The notes under the pieces: generated by a model
Seen by the model: only the letters and a program-made list of their open reading frames with translations
Told to the model about the DNA's origin: nothing
Database searches by the model: none
Shown: positions 3,376-17,432 of the stretch, piece after piece
Layout: every line of letters begins with the position of its first letter
Numbering within the stretch: position 1 is the stretch's first letter
Made by a program: the position numbers and the translations under genes
Assembly: GCA_949752735.1 (NCBI GenBank)
Contig: OX457038.1
Location: 58,619,906-58,683,905 of the forward strand
Length of the DNA: 64,000 nucleotides
Direction of reading: 5' to 3'
Source of the DNA: Lumbricus terrestris
Lineage: Eukaryota; Annelida; Clitellata; Crassiclitellata; Lumbricidae

Positions 3376-3447
3376 TAGCAGAGCGTGGTTTCGATCCACG
3401 GACCTCTGGGTTATGGGCCCAGCACGCTTCCACTGCGCCACTCTGCT
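3376..3447 (-). tRNA. Initiator tRNA-Met (CAT)
   Basis: The minus strand folds as a complete 72-nt initiator tRNA. The acceptor stem is AGCAGAG/CTCTGCT with an A1-T72 pair and discriminator A. The anticodon stem has three G-C pairs (GGG/CCC) around loop CCATAAC with anticodon CAT. The T arm is CGTGG/CCACG around ATCGAAA. A1:U72, the GGG:CCC stem and A54/A60 are hallmarks of eukaryotic initiator tRNA rather than elongator Met. A run of A on the + strand at 3367-3370 is a TTTT Pol III terminator on the gene strand. No intron and no disrupting mismatch is seen, so the gene is probably functional. Confidence 0.95.
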
Positions 3448-4624: not shown

Positions 4625-4770
4625 CGTCCGGACAAGACTTTTACAAACGCATGACTGCTTTTCAGGCAATGTAACTCAGCCTATAATGGCCTCCGCTTGC
4701 AAAAGAGTAGGCTATGTTAGGCCATATATATAAGTAGTGGTAATACGATGTACCTGGCCCCTCCACGGTC

Positions 4771-4872
4771 GCTGTTTCTGGCCCACCACTGTTTCTGGCC
4801 CACCACTGTTTCTGGCCCGTCACTGTTTCTGGCCCGTCACTGTTTCTGGCCCGTCACTGTTTCTGGCCCGTC
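4771..4872. repeat. 17-bp subterminal tandem array, left arm
   Basis: Six head-to-tail copies of a 17-bp unit, GCTGTTTCTGGCCCACC or CACTGTTTCTGGCCCGT. The array lies about 45 bp inside the element end. The mirror array is at 11531-11632. Subterminal arrays like this often serve as transposase-binding clusters, but that role is inferred here. Confidence 0.9.
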
Positions 4873-5091
4873 ACGTGACTGTATGACGTCATCTGTAATG
4901 TATACTCTCACTAAAGACCCATGTTTTTGGCCCAGTGGGTTATAAACCGTCACGCTTCACTGATCATGGTCTTTGATCCTTTCTTTTGATCTTTTGTTCT
5001 TTTGTATTGGACGCTGAAGGGACGCTGCAGGGACGGGGACGGGGAAGGGAAGGGGAAGGGCTGGGGAAGGCGATGCGAGCCCCTCCCCTCC

Positions 5092-5161
5092 CCCTAACCC
5101 TAACCCTAACCCTAACCCTAACCCTAACCCTAACCCTAACCCTAACCCTAACCCTAACCCC
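5092..5161 (-). repeat. Telomere-type array (CCCTAA)n, left arm
   Basis: About eleven perfect CCCTAA units, so TTAGGG runs on the minus strand and points out of the element to the left. TTAGGG is the ancestral metazoan telomere repeat. The array is interstitial, with about 365 bp of element beyond it. Confidence 0.95.
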
Positions 5162-5717
5162 TTCGTCAGCATCTTTCGATTTTCAGCAGCTGCTACAGCT
5201 GCTTAGTCATTCTCAACTCAGTTCTTTTAAAGAATCACAATTTATATGGCGCCACATGCACTATAAGATGCGTACTATTTTAAAACTATAAGAGCAATGT
5301 TTCGAGTTTAAAATTCTGTACAAGGCTTTTTTCTGTTCATTTCTTTGACTTGTGAGCGATTCTCTTCTCATTTCTTTTAAAATGGTAGATTCTTTATAGG
5401 ACATGCACTGTAAGACATGTTCGATTTTTAAGATTCTGTTTTGATTTGTAAGGTATTTTCGACTCATTTCTTTTAAAACGGTAGTTTGCTTTATGGAACA
5501 CGTACTATTTTAAAATTATAAGAGGCATCTTTCGTTTTTAAGACTCTGGCCCTGTAAGACATGCACTATTTTAAAATTATAAGAGGCATGGGTCGATTTG
5601 TAATGAATTCGCCAGACAATTCTTTTAAAACGGTGGATTGCTTTTACTATTTTAAAATTATAAGAGCCATTTTTCGATTTTTAAGTTTCTGTTTTGACTT
5701 GCGAGGAATTCTTTATG

Positions 5718-5719
<2 letters not shown>

Positions 5720-5750
<31 letters not shown>

Positions 5751-5769
5751 GCGCGCACACATACGCACC

Positions 5770-5802
<33 letters not shown>

Positions 5803-5852
5803 GCGCGCGCACACATACGCACCCGCACACACACACACACACAAACAAACAA
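5720..5852. repeat. CA/CG microsatellite, left arm
   Basis: (CA)n runs broken by CGCGCG and by CATACGCACCCGCA. The right-arm counterpart (about 10575-10690) is 12 bp shorter. Confidence 0.9.
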
Positions 5853-5999
5853 GAAACTGCACAGACTATCCATCCACACCCATCAACCTCATCATCCAAC
5901 CCTCCATTCCACCCCTCCCCACCCACAAATATTCATTTTACACACTAGAGCTGAACATTACGATAGCGACAAACTTAGAGAGGCAGCAAACAGCAGGCT

Positions 6000-6600
6000 A
6001 GAAACTCTATATACGGCATCTCTCATCCTCCACAGCATTCAACCTCACCCTCCAACCCTCCATTCCACCCCTCCCCACGCACAATTATTCATTTTACACA
6101 CATGAGCTGAACATTATGGAAGCGAGAAACTTAGAGAGGACGCAAACAGGAGGCTATATTCCATAGGCATGGTATCTCACAGCCTCCACAGCATTCAACC
6201 TCACCCTCCAACCCTCCATTCCACCCCTCCCCACGCACAATTATTCATTTTACACACATGAGCTGAACATTATGGAAGCGAGAAACTTAGAGAGGACGCA
6301 AACAGGAGGCTATATTCCATAGGCATGGCATCTCACAGCCTCCACAGCATTCAAACTCACCCTCCATCCCTCCATTCCACCCCTCCCCACGCACAATTAT
6401 TCATTTTACACACATGAGCTGAACATTATGGAAGCGAGAAACTTAGAGAGGACGCAAACAGGAGGCTATATTCCATAGGCATGGCATCTCACAGCCTCCA
6501 CAGCATTCAACCTCACCCTCCAACCCTCCATTCCACCCCTCCCCACCCACAATTATACATTTTACACACAAGAACTGGCCAATCAGAAAGCTTGAAACCT
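6000..6600. repeat. 156-bp tandem array, left arm
   Basis: Units containing ATGGCATCTCACAGCC start at 6169, 6325 and 6481, an exact period of 156 bp, with a partial unit before and a diverged one after. Each unit carries CCTCCATTCCACCCCTCCCC and ACACATGAGCTGAACATTATG. The array is mirrored at about 9820-10400. Confidence 0.9.
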
Positions 6601-6984
6601 AGTGAGCGACTAATCAGAAGGCGAGAAATCCCACACACCCGCCACCCCACCCTCCAAACCTCCAAGCCTTCACTCCACACACACAAATTTGGCATACATG
6701 TATAAAATTTAAGCATCTAGCAACTGCTAAATCCTTAACATGACCCACTCAGAAGAATATAATTCATACATATTTACCAAAAATATTCCCAATATTCGCT
6801 ATTTTATTCGAAAATATACATATAACAGCAATAAATACAATTAAATTATACTAAATTATAACATTTATTCAGAATTTGTTACAATACTAAGCAAACTATA
6901 GCAGACAAGCGCCATTTTCATATATATTTCTTCTATATTTCTTACATTTCAAGCAAGCACAAACCCAAAAACCGAAGAAACGCG

Positions 6985-7690
6985 CAACCTTCCAATCCCA
7001 AGATGGCGATATTTCTAACTTTCTTGCACACACGAACTCAAAAATCAACGAATCCTGCAACAGGCCTTTTGGAAGATGGCAACATTTCTTACTTCCTTGC
7101 ACACTCGAACTCAAAAACCGACGAATCGCTCAGCCTTCCTTTCGGAATATGGGGGCATTGCTAACTTTCTTGCATACACGAACTCAAAAACCGACGAATA
7201 CTTCATCCTTCCACTCCCATTATGGTGACATTTCCCATTTCCTTGTACACAAAAACTCAAAAACTTAAGAACCTTGCAACATTTCAATATCAATATGGCG
7301 AAATTTCTAACTTTCTTGCACACACGAACTCATAAACCGACGAATACCTCAACCCTCCAATCCCAAGATGGCGATATTTCTAACTTTCTTGCACACACGA
7401 ACTCAAAAACCGACGAATACCTCAACATGCCAATCCCAAGATGGCAATATTTCTAACTTTCTTGCACACACGAACTCATAAACCGACGAATACCTCAACC
7501 TTCCAATCCCAAGATGGCGATATTTCTAACTTTCTTGCACATACGAACTCAAAAACCGACGAATACCTCAACATGCCAATCCCAAGATGGCGATATTTCT
7601 AACTTTCTTGTGAACACAAACTCAAAAACCGACAAATACTTCAACCTTTCACGTCCAAGATGGCAACATTTCTCAATTCCTTGCACACAG
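6985..7690. repeat. 73-bp tandem array, left arm into spacer
   Basis: The unit contains CAATCCCAAGATGGCGATAT, CTTGCACACACGAACTCAA and ACCGACGAATACCTC. Successive AATCCC positions at 7359, 7432, 7505 and 7578 give a 73-bp period. Units before 7330 are more diverged. The array runs past the arm boundary at 7487 into the spacer. The right arm holds the matching part at 8934-9440. Confidence 0.88.
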
Positions 7691-7893
7691 AAACACAAAA
7701 ATCGATGTATCGGCCAGCAGTGCTATCAGCCGGAGACAACATGGCCGCCTTTCTACATCATACACACAAACACGCACACACACGCACACATACACAGCAT
7801 TTCTTACGAGTCTAAGTCCAAATATCTATCACACACAAACAACTTTCCACTACAAGATAATGCACGCTCAATCTTTAACACACACGCACACTC

Positions 7894-7928
<35 letters not shown>

Positions 7929-8933
7929 CGCACACATACAGCCAAATTTCCCACTGCAAGGTAATGCACAGTCAATCTTTTGAACCCACACACACATGAG
8001 CTCTTATAATTTCTAAGTTCCAGATATATACTTTGTACAATTTTTCTAAATTAAGGTAGTAAGGACACATGAAACAACGAAGAATGCACTCTGTATAAGA
8101 CAAGTGCTCGAAATTCATAGTTGCAAAGTTGCAGGAATTGAACATTGACACAGGCAAAATGATAAGTATGATAGTTGTGCGAGCGAATAGGACTTGGATT
8201 TTTCGAATTATTTCAAAGTCAGACGCATGCCATTACCAATATACGATTTCAAACAGGCAAATTCGCTAAGTATGAAATGCAGAGATTGCATGGGGAACGA
8301 TGTAAGATGCAAAGCGTGGGGTGCGGAGAGGGGCACATTCTTCAGTTTGTGGAAACAAAGATGTTCATTGTCTGCAATATGACAGCAATTTTGACAAAGT
8401 TAGGTTTGCAGGCGGCGTATTACACGACTTTTTAGGGTTGAGCGTTTTAAGTTGGAGAAATTTGGGGTGGAGGAGAGTGTGCAGCATTAGGATTTGCGAA
8501 AACAAAAGATGTGACTCACATGCGATGAGTCATCGATTTCAGCAAAGTGCGATTATAGCGAGCGAAGAATGCAAGTTAGGGTTGCGAGCAGCATATTACA
8601 AGGTGAATTAGGTGTAGAGGACACGCGTTATTTGTCCAAAACTCTCGTTCGACAAATCGAAAATGCTAAGTTCCTAAATTTTTGCAGGGCAAATTCGTGC
8701 GGCGGCGTCCTTCGTGCGCTGCGGCGGCGATGCGCCCCGTCCCTCACGGGCGACTTCGGTTCCAGCAGCGAGGCGACGGCCGCAACATGTGCACCCAATC
8801 GATCGTGCTTTGACTCGTATGAAGCTAAAGTCTCATGCGTATTGTGGGGTATGGAAATTATTGAAAGATTTGTGCCGTGGCGTATTCGACTTTAGCTTGC
8901 ACGGGTCAAAGCTTGATCTAATTGGGAGCGCAT
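7488..8933. other. Unpaired spacer of the palindromic element
   Basis: The left part continues the 73-bp array and CA-rich runs (to about 7960). The rest is single-copy with a GC-rich patch near 8700-8775. Open frames of about 60-160 codons occur, but they translate repeats or lack recognisable domains. No transposase DDE/D domain, zinc finger or reverse transcriptase could be seen. The element is therefore probably non-autonomous. Confidence 0.7.
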
Positions 8934-11247
8934 GTCGGTTTATGAGTTCGTGTGTGCAAGAAAGTTAGAAATATTGCCATCTTGGGATTGGCATGTTGAG
9001 GTATTCGTCGGTTTTTGAGTTCGTGTGTGCAAGAAAGTTAGAAATATCGCCATCTTGGGATTGGAGGGTTGAGGTATTCGTCGGTTTATGAGTTCGTGTG
9101 TGCAAGAAAGTTAGAAATTTCGCCATATTGATATTGAAATGTTGCAAGGTTCTTAAGTTTTTGAGTTTTTGTGTACAAGGAAATGGGAAATGTCACCATA
9201 ATGGGAGTGGAAGGATGAAGTATTCGTCGGTTTTTGAGTTCGTGTATGCAAGAAAGTTAGCAATGCCCCCATATTCCGAAAGGAAGGCTGAGCGATTCGT
9301 CGGTTTTTGAGTTCGAGTGTGCAAGGAAGTAAGAAATGTTGCCATCTTCCAAAAGGCCTGTTGCAGGATTCGTTGATTTTTGAGTTCGTGTGTGCAAGAA
9401 AGTTAGAAATATCGCCATCTTGGGATTGGAAGGTTGCGCGTTTCTTCGGTTTTTGGGTTTGTGCTTGCTTGAAATGTAAGAAATATAGAAGAAATATATA
9501 TGAAAATGGCGCTTGTCTGCTATAGTTTGCTTAGTATTGTAACAAATTCTGAATAAATGTTATAATTTAGTATAATTTAATTGTATTTATTGCTGTTATA
9601 TGTATATTTTCGAATAAAATAGCGAATATTGGGAATATTTTTGGTAAATATGTATGAATTATATTCTTCTGAGTGGGTCATGTTAAGGATTTAGCAGTTG
9701 CTAGATGCTTAAATTTTATACATGTATGCCAAATTTGTGTGTGTGGAGTGAAGGCTTGGAGGTTTGGAGGGTGGGGTGGCGGGTGTGTGGGATTTCTCGC
9801 CTTCTGATTAGTCGCTCACTAGGTTTCAAGCTTTCTGATTGGCCAGTTCTTGTGTGTAAAATGTATAATTGTGGGTGGGGAGGGGTGGAATGGAGGGTTG
9901 GAGGGTGAGGTTGAATGCTGTGGAGGCTGTGAGATGCCATGCCTATGGAATATAGCCTCCTGTTTGCGTCCTCTCTAAGTTTCTCGCTTCCATAATGTTC
10001 AGCTCATGTGTGTAAAATGAATAATTGTGCGTGGGGAGGGGTGGAATGGAGGGATGGAGGGTGAGTTTGAATGCTGTGGAGGCTGTGAGATGCCATGCCT
10101 ATGGAATATAGCCTCCTGTTTGCGTCCTCTCTAAGTTTCTCGCTTCCATAATGTTCAGCTCATGTGTGTAAAATGAATAATTGTGCGTGGGGAGGGGTGG
10201 AATGGAGGGTTGGAGGGTGAGGTTGAATGCTGTGGAGGCTGTGAGATACCATGCCTATGGAATATAGCCTCCTGTTTGCGTCCTCTCTAAGTTTCTCGCT
10301 TCCATAATGTTCAGCTCATGTGTGTAAAATGAATAATTGTGCGTGGGGAGGGGTGGAATGGAGGGTTGGAGGGTGAGGTTGAATGCTGTGGAGGATGAGA
10401 GATGCCGTATATAGAGTTTCTAGCCTGCTGTTTGCTGCCTCTCTAAGTTTGTCGCTATCGTAATGTTCAGCTCTAGTGTGTAAAATGAATATTTGTGGGT
10501 GGGGAGGGGTGGAATGGAGGGTTGGATGATGAGGTTGATGGGTGTGGATGGATAGTCTGTGCAGTTTCTTGTTTGTTTGTGTGTGTGTGTGTGCGGGTGC
10601 GTATGTGTGCGCGCGCGTGTGTGTGTGTGTGTGTGTGTGCGGGTGCGTATGTGTGCGCGCGCGCGTGTGTGTGTGTGTGTGTGTGTGTGGGCATAAAGAA
10701 TTCCTCGCAAGTCAAAACAGAAACTTAAAAATCGAAAAATGGCTCTTATAATTTTAAAATAGTAAAAGCAATCCACCGTTTTAAAAGAATTGTCTGGCGA
10801 ATTCATTACAAATCGACCCATGCCTCTTATAATTTTAAAATAGTGCATGTCTTACAGGGCCAGAGTCTTAAAAACGAAAGATGCCTCTTATAATTTTAAA
10901 ATAGTACGTGTTCCATAAAGCAAACTACCGTTTTAAAAGAAATGAGTCGAAAATACCTTACAAATCAAAACAGAATCTTAAAAATCGAACATGTCTTACA
11001 GTGCATGTCCTATAAAGAATCTACCATTTTAAAAGAAATGAGAAGAGAATCGCTCACAAGTCAAAGAAATGAACAGAAAAAAGCCTTGTACAGAATTTTA
11101 AACTCGAAACATTGCTCTTATAGTTTTAAAATAGTACGCATCTTATAGTGCATGTGGCGCCATATAAATTGTGATTCTTTAAAAGAACTGAGTTGAGAAT
11201 GACTAAGCAGCTGTAGCAGCTGCTGAAAATCGAAAGATGCTGACGAA

Positions 11248-11311
11248 GGGGTTAGGGTTAGGGTTAGGGTTAGGGTTAGGGTTAGGGTTAGGGTTAGGGT
11301 TAGGGTTAGGG
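11248..11311 (+). repeat. Telomere-type array (TTAGGG)n, right arm
   Basis: About ten TTAGGG units pointing rightwards, out of the element. It is the mirror of 5092-5161 and one unit shorter. Confidence 0.95.
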
Positions 11312-11530
11312 GGAGGGGAGGGGCTCGCATCGCCTTCCCCAGCCCTTCCCCTTCCCTTCCCCGTCCCCGTCCCTGCAGCGTCCCTTCAGCGTCCAATACA
11401 AAAGAACAAAAGATCAAAAGAAAGGATCAAAGACCATGATCAGTGAAGCGTGACGGTTTATAACCCACTGGGCCAAAAACATGGGTCTTTAGTGAGAGTA
11501 TACATTACAGATGACGTCATACAGTCACGT

Positions 11531-11632
11531 GACGGGCCAGAAACAGTGACGGGCCAGAAACAGTGACGGGCCAGAAACAGTGACGGGCCAGAAACAGTGG
11601 TGGGCCAGAAACAGTGGTGGGCCAGAAACAGC
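11531..11632. repeat. 17-bp subterminal tandem array, right arm
   Basis: Six copies of ACGGGCCAGAAACAGTG-type units, the mirror of 4771-4872. Confidence 0.9.
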
Positions 11633-11842
11633 GACCGTGGAGGGGCCAGGTACATCGTATTACCACTACTTATATAGATTATAAACCCTACCATCTGAAC
11701 AACCTTTAAGAATATAGTTTGTGTACGCCTACGTTTAGGCCTATAAGTAGGCCTATGCGCAAGCGACGGGTCTGCTTGGCTGAATGCTTCTTTATCGTCA
11801 AACGAAAACTCAGTAGCACCTGTTTGATAAGCGTAAACGTCA

Positions 11843-11913
11843 GCGTGAGTGGTATAACGGTAGCATAGTTGCCTTCCAAGCAATTGATCCGGGTTCGACT
11901 CCCGGCTCACGCA
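11843..11913 (+). tRNA. tRNA-Gly (TCC)
   Basis: Complete 71-nt cloverleaf. The acceptor stem is GCGTGAG/CTCACGC with discriminator A. The D arm contains GTGGTATAACGGTAGCAT (A box). The anticodon loop is CTTCCAA with anticodon TCC. The T arm is CCGGG TTCGACT CCCGG (B box GGTTCGACTCC). A TTTT Pol III terminator follows within 10 bp (CTCTGTTTTAG). There is no intron and all stems pair. It starts 166 bp after the palindromic element. Confidence 0.96.
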
Positions 11914-13055
11914 CTCTGTTTTAGATTGCGTATTTGACCAATGGTAGGTCGCAAGCGACATGCATTCTGTGTTTTATGAAGTTTCTGTTAGCAATGCCGA
12001 AAACTAAAACTCTCATCGTTCACGAAAAATAAAGGTTTTGTTAATGATGACGATAACCAAAACGTCACGCAATAAGCCTATAGGCCCTAACGATAAAGAA
12101 TAAAAGCGAAAATTCGGGCCTTGCAACTATTGCTAAGACTTAAACTCGGCATACTAATAATATGCCCAACAGATAAAAATAACGAAAACCTTAGCTAAAA
12201 CCTTAATTTGGTCAATTTCGGCGAAAACTGAATTGTTACTTTGGCGTAGGCCTATAGGCCTACTTGCTTCACTCCATAGGTTTAGCCTATAAGAGTTAGC
12301 GCTAGGCATTACATGCAGATCGATATATCATTCTATTCGTTGGCCTATAATTATCTATGTCTTCCCAAAATTCATTAGGCCTAGGTCTATTTCTTTTATT
12401 CCAGTTTCGGGCAACTCGCTGCGACAATAAAAAATTTGACACTGCCAATTATATAGCCTAAGCCTAAGCCAAGTATTGTGGATTAATTAGGCCTAATTTT
12501 CTGACGAGTAGCCTTCGCCTTCTCTTTACTTTATCTAAAGCAAGTTACGTCAGCATAACAATATTAGTTTGCCTTAAATCGACTTAAATGCTAAGGTCAC
12601 GTGGGTCTAACTGGAGAAAATAGGCTTCCGGTTTAACACGTTTCTAACCGAGTTGCACTCAGTTGGTCAAATTCTTCACTAGGTCTATAATTATATATGC
12701 CTAACAGATTTCAAGAATATAAGTGTCATTCGCTTCGTGGCGCTGCTCGCGCCCATCCGGCAGCCGGGCAACCTGTTACCCATTTCGCGGTATCTAAATT
12801 GGTAGAGTCATTGCAAGCAAATGTTTTGTTTTTCCTATTTAAATGGATAAATAACCTTTAAAAAACTTTACTCTTAGGCCAATGGGGGAGGGGTTTAACC
12901 CTGAAACCCCCTTGTCTACGCCACTGGTAGCCTGCCAATGTAACCCGATGGAAATCAAAGTTTGAAAAGCCTAAGTCAAGTTTGCAAGTTGTTGGCGAGT
13001 GCCATGCGAGACATAATATTATTGTGTCTTATTGGGGATTAGGAGCTAGGACATT
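11914..13055. other. Intergenic stretch without recognised features
   Basis: AT-rich sequence with many TAGGCCTA-type octamers, a motif frequent across the first 18 kb. Near 12885 a short piece (GAGGGGTTTAACCCTGAAACC, then CCCCTTGTCTACGCCACTGG) looks like a transposon end, but no partner end was found. Confidence 0.4.
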
Positions 13056-13233
13056 ATATAGATATAGGAGACAGGGAGAGTGAAATAGTAAATTGTGATA
13101 GTAGACAGAGGAATTGAGATAGGAAAGAGATAGGAAAGAGGTAGTGAGCGAGATAGAAGACAGAGAGATTGAGATAGAAGAGAGATGGCAGACAGATAGT
13201 GTGTGAGAGGGAGATAGGAGAGCAAGATAGGAT

Positions 13234-13318
<85 letters not shown>

Positions 13319-13347
13319 CAGAGAGACAGAGAGAAATAGAGAGAAAT

Positions 13348-13404
<57 letters not shown>

Positions 13405-13453
13405 AATAGAGAGACAGAGAGAGAGAGACAGAGAGAGAGAGAGAGACAGAGAC

Positions 13454-13484
<31 letters not shown>

Positions 13485-13555
13485 GCGTGTGAGATAAGAT
13501 AGACTAGAGACAGGAGTCAGAGCGATTGGAGACAGATGGAGTGAGATGTGAGATA
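13056..13555. repeat. (GA)n-rich low-complexity block
   Basis: GATAGGAGA-type repeats merge into a long GA dinucleotide run (about 13240-13310), then mixed GAGACAGAGA repeats. Purine-only + strand. Open frames on the minus strand here are low-complexity artefacts. Confidence 0.9.
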
Positions 13556-13559
13556 GCTA

Positions 13560-13690
13560 GGAGAGAGATAGTAGACAGAAGGAGTGAGATAGGAGAGAGA
13601 TAGTAGACAGAAGGAGTGAGATAGGAGAGAGATAGTAGACGGAAGGAGTGAGATAGGAGAGAGATAGTAGACAGAAGGAATGAGATAGGA
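13560..13690. repeat. 32-bp minisatellite
   Basis: Four copies of a 32-bp unit of the form GAGAGATAGTAGACAGAAGG plus AGTGAGATAGGA. Confidence 0.85.
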
Positions 13691-13924
13691 GACGGTGTGA
13701 TATAGAAGAGATAGGATATAGAGAAAGAGAGCGATAGGAGACAGAAAAGGTGTTTGCTATAGTTAGCAAGGAATACTTGAGAGAAAGAGAGAGACATGAA
13801 GGAGAGAGAAACAAGACAGTGAGAGTGAGAGAAGAGATAGAGAGATGCTAGTGAGAGATACTTGAGAGAGATTGGAGACAGAGTATGAAATAGGATGAAG
13901 ATTGTGGACATATGAAGTGATATG

Positions 13925-14310
13925 GGAGAGAGACAGGAGACCGAAAGGGTGTGAGATAGGCTAGAGATAGGAGACAGAAAGCGTGTAGGATAGGCGAGAG
14001 ATAAGAGACAGAAAGAGTGTTGGATATGCGAGAGACAGGAGACAGAAAAAGTGTGGGATAGGCGAGAGATAGAAGACAGAAAGAATGTGGGATAGACGAG
14101 AGATAGAAGACATAAAGAATGTGGGATAGGCGAGAGACAGGAGACAGAAAGAATGTGGGATAGGCGAGAGATAGAAGACAGAAAGAATGTGGGATAGACG
14201 AGAGATAGAAGACATAAAGAATGTGGGATAGGCGAGAGACAGGAGACAGAAAGAATGTGGGATAGGCGAGAGATAGGAGACAGAAAGAATGTGGGATAGG
14301 AATGAGATAG
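13925..14310. repeat. 34-bp minisatellite
   Basis: About eleven copies of a 34-bp unit containing GACAGAAAGAATGTGGGATA then GGCGAGAGATAGAA. Variants GGATAGACG and GACATAAAG recur together, so a higher-order two- or three-unit period seems to have been amplified. Confidence 0.85.
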
Positions 14311-14359
14311 AGAAATGAGATAGGATAGAGAGAGAGAGTGCGAGATAGAAGAGAAAGAA

Positions 14360-14705
14360 AGGAGACAGAGACGTAGGCTGAGGCAGAGGCGTAGGCAAAG
14401 GCAGAGGCAGAGGCGTAGGCAGAGGCAGCGGCGTAGGCGTAGGCTGAGGCAGAGGCGTAGGCAAAGGCAGAGGCAGAGACGTAGGCTGAGGCAGAGGCGT
14501 AGGCAAATGCAGAGGCGTAGGCAGAGGCAGAGGCAGAGGCGGAGGCAGCGGCGTAGGCGTAGGCTGAGGCAGAGGCGTAGGCAGAGGCAGAGGCGTAGGC
14601 AGAGGCAGCGGCGTAGGCGTAGGCTGAGGCAGAGGCGTAGGCAAAGGCAGAGGCAGAGGCGTAGGCAGAGGCAGAGACGTAGGCGGATGTGTAGGCTTGG
14701 AGACA
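14360..14705. repeat. AGGCNG hexamer-derived satellite
   Basis: Array of AGGCAG, AGGCGT, AGGCTG and AGGCAA hexamers with longer blocks (AGGCGTAGGCTGAGGCAG) repeated at about 14436, 14550 and 14610. Because 6 is a multiple of 3, several frames stay open, which creates the long Leu/Arg/Cys-rich and Ala/Ser/Tyr-rich minus-strand frames that extend over 13504-14786. These are not genes. Confidence 0.9.
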
Positions 14706-16431: not shown

Positions 16432-17432
16432 ATTATATCTGTACATAATTTATACTTCTGATCTTGCATCTCTTCTTACAACGCATGCAGTTTTGGGTCA
16501 GCTTTACGCTGATGATGTACAAGCGTACAAGCATTGCCTATCGTCTAGCGCCATATCAGCGGTCCGGGACATGAGTGAGACCTTAACTGCCTTAGAAACA
16601 TGGATATCATCTAACCGACTGCGCCTAAACCCAACTAAGACTAAATTTATCTGGCTGGGCAATCGTAAGCAACTTGCTAAAATTGACTTCGATGCATTTG
16701 TGACTGAATTCCCCACTTACACTTTCTCAAATACGGTCCGTGACCTTGGTGTCCTGTTGGACCAAGAGCTCACATTTGCTCCTCACATTCACCGACTTAC
16801 TCGAGACTGCTACTATCAATTGCGTCAGCTTCGCACAATTGCTCGTTCACTGAAATCTAGTGCTGTCACCACTCTGGTCCATTCCTTCATTACTTCCCGT
16901 CTTGACTATTGCTCGTCACTCTACTCTGGCCTCCCATCCAATCGAATAATGTGCTTAAACAGAGTCTTACGCTCTGCAGCACGTTTAATTGGACATATCC
17001 CTAAATTTGATCATGTGTCCAGCTATATGCTGGAGACATTACACTGGCTTCCTACTCGGCAGCGCATATTGAATTTAGGATCGCTGCCCTAGTTAGGCAA
17101 TGCCAGCTTGGAATCGCCCCACAGTACTTGCAAGAGCTTTGTTGCTCCACTAGTATCCTAGACCACCGCCCCCTCCGCTCTGCACAGAAGGGATTGCTAT
17201 TGGTCCCTTTTGCACGAACTGCAACGATGCAGCATAGAGCCTTTTCTGTGATCGGCCCAGTTGTGTGGAATGAGCTTCCACAGGAACTACGTCTACTTGC
17301 TGGGGTTATTACTGGAACATTTTTTTTACTAAACTCAAAACTGTCCTTTTTTGCCGTGCTAGAGTCGGGAGCGCTTCTGAGTAGTCGCCTTGAAGAAGCG
17401 CTATATAAATTCTTGAATGAATGAATGAATGT
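16432..17432 (+). pseudogene. 5'-truncated CR1/L2-like LINE with frameshift
   Basis: The frame from about 16445 to 17092 encodes the C-terminal half of a reverse transcriptase: a YTSDL segment, the catalytic YADD box at about 16504-16515, then RLRLNPTKTKFIWLG, DLGVLLD, SFITSRLDYC and LHWLPTRQRI. These motifs, in this order, are typical of CR1/L2-clade LINEs. Near 17070-17080 the frame breaks by one base, and the rest continues in another frame (GIAPQYLQEL, FSVIGPVVWNELP) to about 17330. The copy ends with GAGTCGGGAGCGCTTCTGAG, GCGCTATATAAATTC and (TGAA)n, the usual LINE 3' tail. The endonuclease and the N-terminal RT are missing. A dead copy. Confidence 0.88.

Follow-up and report, generated by a model that had tools for sequence, protein, structure and literature searches.

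A palindromic element of nearly 7 kb at positions 4727–11676 of a 64,000-nucleotide stretch of the Lumbricus terrestris genome (GenBank assembly GCA_949752735.1, contig OX457038.1, positions 58,619,906–58,683,905 of the forward strand; hereafter the window) is very probably a foldback-shaped, non-autonomous offshoot of a Maverick-type family, with arms that have been rewritten; the integrase of that family presumably moves it. The assignment follows from outer ends shared with integrase-bearing, virus-like copies elsewhere in the genome; the copying of the arms from each other follows from the differences between copies of the family, nearly all of which are found in both arms.

Architecture of the palindrome and its spacer

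The original prediction, made from the letters of the window alone, described a palindrome with two inverted arms of ~2.75 kb, and end-to-end alignment confirms them at 4727–7487 (2761 bp) and 8934–11676 (2743 bp), with a 1446-bp spacer (7488–8933) between. The arm-versus-arm alignment contains one substitution and 18 gap bases, every one within telomeric or CA arrays: the gaps comprise one 6-bp telomere unit and 12 bp of CA/CG array, both as originally described, the latter in three pieces (2 + 8 + 2), and the sole substitution (5747 versus 10664, within the CA/CG array) had been overlooked. Outside the microsatellites the left and right arms are 100% identical, and identity across 2.7 kb of arm is beyond chance.

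The palindrome does end abruptly in unrelated flanks, but its outermost 6 bp on each side are best read as a target duplication, TATATA, rather than arm; the duplication is itself palindromic and therefore passed for arm. The element proper spans 4733–11670 (6938 bp), with termini AGTAGTGG / CCACTACT, and is, on the sequence of its ends and flanks, a transposon insertion. A reading of the TA-rich ends as a TA duplication of the Tc1/mariner-like kind was set aside, since relatives elsewhere show 6-bp duplications. Inward from either end runs the chain of repeats that had been described, from 17-bp array, through a block of CACGTG, TGACGTCA and TATAAA motifs, (CCCTAA)n, AT-rich diverged repeats, CA array, 156-bp repeats and a non-repetitive middle, to 73-bp repeats; with long inverted arms made of tandem repeats, the architecture is Foldback-like, as recognised at the outset. 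The features are:

4727–4732, +, left target-site duplication TATATA (read directly in the sequence; found by script)
11671–11676, +, right target-site duplication TATATA (found by script)
4733–11670, no strand, whole non-coding element, 6938 bp (arm alignment, target duplication)
4733–7487, +, left inverted arm (arm alignment)
8934–11670, −, right inverted arm (arm alignment)
4768–4874, +, 17-bp subterminal tandem array, candidate integrase-binding sites (outer domain common to coding relatives)
11529–11635, −, 17-bp subterminal array, right arm (tandem-repeat listing)
4872–4946, +, CACGTG, TGACGTCA and TATAAA motifs, putative, promoter-like by eye
5092–5160, +, telomeric repeat (CCCTAA)11.5, present too in the terminal repeats of coding relatives
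11249–11311, −, telomeric repeat, right arm, one unit fewer
5161–5719, +, AT-rich diverged repeat domain (in coding relatives in part, at the protease/capsid end only)
10690–11248, −, AT-rich domain, right arm (arm alignment)
5720–5851, +, CA/CG array
10570–10689, −, CA/CG array, right arm, 12 bp less
5852–6640, +, 156-bp tandem repeat domain
9781–10569, −, 156-bp tandem repeat domain, right arm
6641–6930, +, non-repetitive middle domain (genome search)
9491–9780, −, middle domain, right arm (arm alignment, genome search)
6935–7705, +, 73-bp tandem repeat domain, its final part inside the spacer
8934–9486, −, 73-bp tandem repeat domain, right arm, shorter
7488–8933, +, spacer, inner left arm without a right-hand partner (L042 carries this stretch twice, inverted)
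8888–8933, −, what appears to be left of the lost inner right arm, meeting the 73-bp array at microhomology CGAC

The original prediction saw no transposase. None of 11 tested open reading frames (ORFs), drawn from 108 stop-to-stop ORFs of at least 40 residues in the element, reached a Pfam cut-off, and the seven proteins of the gene-bearing relatives described below have no match anywhere in the window. Weak Pfam matches to HCV_NS5a, ProQ, RNB and similar families fell below the cut-offs and were taken as chance.

The spacer, originally called unique, is nothing of the kind, most of it occurring twice, inverted, in five of the eight other gene-less copies of the family (copies are identified below by locus numbers L039–L058). 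Window positions 7400–8937 are present twice in inverted orientation in L042 (97%), and most of this stretch twice in L040, L041, L043 and L051; L044 carries the spacer once, in two pieces, L054 once together with a 398-bp inverted part, and L039 once up to 8332 together with an inverted 394 bp. Within the window, 8888–8934 aligns inversely to 8786–8832 (38/48 columns); beyond that point relatives run on into more spacer, and the window jumps to the 73-bp array through a junction sharing CGAC. Comparison with the relatives shows the spacer, at the level of sequence, to be inner left arm left unpaired, and the inverse remnant together with the doubled spacer of relatives makes loss of the inner right arm from the window copy the simplest reading; an end-joining deletion of roughly 1.4 kb (a size estimated from L042) would have removed the partner. 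The alternative that the spacer is a captured host exon, considered for a GC-rich patch at 8681–8820, was rejected: no domain was found there, and the stretch recurs in relatives.

Gene-less and gene-bearing relatives in the L. terrestris genome

The genome searched comprises 1.056 Gb in 331 contigs, the window lying on contig C4. Absence of a second genomic copy, together with evidence of a chimeric join, had been named at the outset as what would undermine the prediction, and many copies were found: for the outer 364 bp there were 182 candidates, of which the 40 scored yielded 45 matches (86–100% identical), and the 290-bp middle domain, with 40 scored of 435 candidates, gave matches all at least 99% identical, forming 17 inverted pairs and six single places. 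All six unpaired places are on the minus strand, probably by chance or as an effect of which candidates were scored. The 10-mer TAAGTAGTGG, originally suggested as a probe for other copies, is not specific, with 687 exact places versus 2024 for its reversed control, eight excised loci proving unrelated; one further place of this 10-mer does mark the left terminus of a genuine family member, L041 (C1:76036238). Scans of viral contigs with the 17-bp array and the capsid protein gave no relatives.

Twenty stretches, picked from the best-scored outer-end places, represent 19 other copies and bring the set to 20 with that of the window. Nine are gene-less (the window, L039–L044, L051 and L054), ten are gene-bearing (L045 + L046, L047–L050, L052, L053 and L056–L058), and L055 is a rearranged copy in which a search with seven L047 proteins found no genes. 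L055 (G000:C14:16335269-16340560) has two right-hand ends in the same orientation, with 6-bp flanks, GAGAGG and CCTCTC, that are mutually reverse-complementary, which suggests from sequence an inversion involving a copy of this family. Among the 18 two-ended copies (L055 and L057 being left out, the latter for a masked left end), 17, including that of the window, are flanked by an exact 6-bp target duplication, no two of them the same in sequence; a script detected 13, and four (L040, L045/L046, L056 and L058) were read by eye from the ends. No target duplication accompanies L047; the left end of L048 is short of three bases, and the right end of L056 has an additional AGT. The nine gene-less copies span 5.2–9.1 kb, and the lengths implied by the 17 middle-domain pairs, if the outer arm length of the window copy is assumed throughout, run from 6956 to 9255, with nine at 8232–8537, near the coding length.

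Four of the coding copies (L049, L050, L052 and L053) measure 8.5–8.7 kb from duplication to duplication, and one copy on contig C16 about 10.4 kb. All nine further coding copies have the seven L047 proteins, which are absent from the ten remaining copies; frame lengths recur among coding copies, with some frames broken (for example capsid in L045, protease in L050, ATPase in L056), and gene bodies are 98.15–99.75% identical to that of L047 when only mismatches are counted. Pfam assigns to L047 an A32-type ATPase, an adenovirus-type protease, and an integrase with a chromodomain; this retroviral-type integrase (rve, 3e-10 on L047) is present in 10/10 coding copies and absent from the window element. 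The mobilising enzyme, originally considered unknown, thus has a candidate in gene-bearing relatives of the same genome that combine related ends with an integrase. Frames of 235, 302, 275 and 453 residues in L047 have no Pfam match. A 441-residue protein, part of the 453-residue frame, has 3464 homologues among 7687 candidates, and is judged to be a capsid protein from the predicted fold of its homologue P0124 (83% identical), whose model (pLDDT 69) matches the double jelly-roll capsids of Sputnik, PBCV-1 and mavirus. A 273-residue protein is similarly judged to be a penton from the predicted fold of P0243 (58% identical; pLDDT 91.6), which matches the mavirus penton and the adenovirus penton base; its neighbour of 302 residues is a paralogue, about 48% identical.

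The link between the two kinds of copy lies in their ends. Coding copies and the window element have in common the outer domain at the ends (partial at one end in L056 and L058) and the telomeric repeats, which, where seen, run as at a chromosome end in gene-less and coding copies. The AT domain is found at both ends in 9/9 gene-less copies (in pieces in L040), and coding copies carry part of it at one end only, on the protease/capsid side. With the window element the coding copies share end sequence only: the 156-bp, middle, 73-bp and spacer domains were detected in 0/10 coding copies at E 1e-8. Inverted terminal repeats measure 0.37–0.46 kb in six coding copies (L047–L050, L052 and L053), 1.0–1.2 kb in L044 and L054, 2.76 kb in the window, and 3.8–4.3 kb in L041–L043; the arms of L039 and of L051 each align as two pieces, totalling about 3.1 and 3.2 kb, those of L040 in repeat pieces only, L056 and L058 give an inverted terminal alignment of about 160 bp, and the same test gave no alignment for L045, L046, L055 and L057.

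No frame of the size of a DNA polymerase was seen in the coding copies read, the long frames of L057 falling in a masked stretch, and Pfam identified no polymerase B among eight L047 frames tested. The host genome seems rich in polymerase-bearing Mavericks too, PF03175 matching 78 scored of 957 candidates with open frames mostly of about 1100 residues. Both observations lend something to the best-surviving alternative, that the coding copies are themselves part passengers, replicated and spread via the polymerase-bearing Mavericks of the same genome; however, they have an integrase and a capsid set of their own, and of the 24 end places compared, three of which are on a contig with no scored polymerase, none has a scored polymerase nearer than 413 kb. 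The alternative is regarded as a serious but unlikely one.

Probable arm-to-arm rewriting and the origin of the element

Arm histories were compared in six gene-less copies, at ungapped sites of the outer, AT and 156-bp/middle domains; L040, L044 and L054 were left out for their partial or short arms. Of 73 variable sites, 66 show no difference between the arms of any copy and seven are discordant (one in L039, four in L041, two in L051, none in the window, L042 or L043); the window and L042 differ at 25 sites, all in both arms. Across copy pairs, 10–62 differences are fixed in both arms in 14/15 and none in the L039/L041 pair, with 0–6 arm-discordant sites per pair, so that, this pair excepted, copies differ more from one another than the arms within them do. 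Left and right arms agree over about 3 kb at 2736/2737 positions in the window, 2995/2996 in L042, 2987/2988 in L043, 2917/2922 in L039, 2951/2962 in L041 and 3068/3073 in L051. The terminal 42 bp of the window element match L039 and L041 (40/42) rather than L042 and L043 (33/42, 11 gaps), in its interior the match is with L042 and L043, and both sides show the same mosaic of terminus and interior. The suggestion in the original prediction of recent insertion or arm-to-arm conversion is accordingly strengthened by the arm identity, the 6-bp duplication and the differences common to both arms. Gene conversion and panhandle replication both predict the pattern. In L040, L042, L043 and L054 a 30-bp motif persists around the palindrome centre in two versions that have diverged, one on each strand, which may mean that homogenisation does not extend to the hairpin loop.

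Near-identical arms would also result if each copy had arisen very recently, with no copying between arms, and some copies (L039, L041) are clearly young. Independent arms would produce mostly discordant sites, against the excess of differences fixed in both arms seen in 14/15 pairs, and in the window copy the switch of 42-bp terminus is shared by its two ends; recent birth alone is thus highly improbable. Slightly less probable again is a classical foldback of the Mutator or P superfamily, with a DDE transposase as its mobilising enzyme. Such an element would share the long, internally repetitive arms, the lack of genes and the arm identity described for Galileo, Tetris and Tm1, but those families make 7–10-bp duplications, here 6 bp in 17/18, and the outer domain and telomeric tract are common to integrase-bearing, virus-like copies. 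Long palindromes are a known assembly hazard and near-identical arms are what a chimeric inverted join would give, but such an artefact is scarcely credible with 6-bp duplications at independent loci on many contigs, arms that vary in length, 40 scored middle-domain places that include 17 inverted pairs, and ends of a like kind in coding relatives.

Several observations weigh against derivation from the Maverick-type family with rewriting of the arms. The outermost 42 bp are of the AGTAGTGG type in the window, L039, L041, L044 and L055 and of the AGTAGAGG type in every coding copy read, so the direct partner of the window copy may be unread. Gene-less copies are devoid of the inner sequence of coding copies and are therefore not simple internal deletions. 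Terminal-repeat identity is 93.3–99.5% in six coding copies (12 mismatches in 382 bp in L053), compared with 98.7–99.8% for the long arms of the window, L041, L042 and L043 in the same test; homogenisation is therefore uneven, or coding ends recombine with other copies. The short-armed L044 and L054 could be ancestors or deletion products, with deletion favoured for L054 because it retains part of an inverted spacer copy. Mobilisation and packaging are inferred, as is, from the shared ends, action of the integrase on gene-less copies; and the copy number of the family rests mostly on unscored candidates.

Under the preferred explanation, a non-autonomous Maverick-type derivative with rewritten arms, the family integrase would act in trans, recognising the shared ends and inserting the palindrome via 6-bp staggered cuts. 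Time and again one arm would act as template for rewriting the other, through gene conversion or when replication passes along a strand folded back on itself as a panhandle. The same process could extend the inverted terminal repeat towards the interior, from the roughly 0.4 kb of coding copies up to the 4.3 kb of the longest palindromes.

A further elaboration, rather doubtful and offered tentatively, would see in the palindromes defective snap-back genomes that derive from a polymerase-less Maverick and are inherited. The protease-side end with the AT-rich domain, single in coding copies, might have been copied onto the other end; the resulting gene-less genome, similar in length to a coding one, would be replicated by panhandle synthesis with the polymerase of resident Mavericks, packaged in capsids of the coding element with the AT-rich domain as packaging signal, and reinserted by its integrase. 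The lengths implied by the middle-domain pairs hint weakly at a packaging limit.

Genomic setting and comparison with known systems

A tRNA-Gly(TCC) gene (11843–11914) lies 166 bp right of the right duplication, and a tRNA-Met gene at 3376–3447. Long purine-rich GAGA-type, 34-bp and 42-bp arrays occupy 13097–14684, to the right of the element, followed at 16433–17424 by a LINE-type reverse-transcriptase fragment (RVT_1, E 2.7e-4, below the cut-off), a 219-residue part of which has 654 homologues in the protein collection.

Ends, duplications and a telomeric tract tie multiple copies of a foldback family to virus-like Mavericks and so connect two kinds of mobile DNA that are generally kept apart. 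The family supplies a natural series of terminal repeats ranging in length from 0.4 to 4.3 kb, and documents arm-to-arm homogenisation cleanly; it also brings to light Maverick relatives of about 8.5 kb that encode a capsid but lack a polymerase, raising the question of what replicates them, and makes it testable whether satellites of an integrated virus can be inherited as part of a cellular genome.

The sea urchin TU elements are likewise foldback in form with outer domains of tandem repeats, but have an 8-bp duplication and 15-bp repeats. Defective adenovirus genomes, which carry large inverted duplications of one genome end and are parasitic on a coding genome, offer a viral counterpart, unlike which the window element is integrated and has added satellite sequence.

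Known foldback elements are mostly Mutator, with exceptions such as Galileo in the P superfamily. Galileo, Tetris, Tm1 and MuTAnT resemble the present family in their long inverted arms, with tandem repeats in several, and their many gene-less copies. They are unlike it in enzyme type, the coding relatives read carrying an rve integrase rather than a Mutator/P transposase, and in duplication length, with 7 bp for Galileo, mostly 9 for Tm1, 8–10 for Tetris and 9 for MuTAnT (PMC4079207, PMC3169594, PMC4486113) in place of 6 bp; arms of about 0.3–1.2 kb for Galileo and up to 1.7 kb for Tetris compare with up to 4.3 kb here. Arm growth by copying has been proposed for Galileo (PMC3573991), the same route as would apply to the window family. 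Miniature inverted-repeat transposable elements (MITEs) are short, usually under 600 bp (PMC3573991), a length exceeded by all nine gene-less copies. No foldback or non-autonomous Maverick/Polinton is reported in the open literature searched (PMC6431247 and PMC8504770, in the sections available), and work elsewhere is possible.

Among Mavericks/Polintons, vertebrate elements have ends that include (AGT)2//(ACT)2, with 6-bp target duplications (PMC8097293), to which the 6-bp duplications and AGT-repeat inverted termini of the present family correspond (AGTAGTGG in the window element, the near form AGTAGAGG in coding copies). The coding relatives add an rve integrase, A32 ATPase, adenovirus-type (C5) protease, predicted double jelly-roll capsid and predicted penton. 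Typical Mavericks/Polintons are about 15–30 kb long (PMC6431247/PMC8504770), unlike the 8.5–8.7 kb of the four coding relatives measured, in which no polymerase B frame was seen, and the 6.9 kb of the gene-less window element with its 2.7-kb satellite arms; lacking a protein-primed polymerase B, the group is therefore best described as a polymerase-less Maverick-type family with a probable non-autonomous derivative, rather than as a Polinton in the strict sense.

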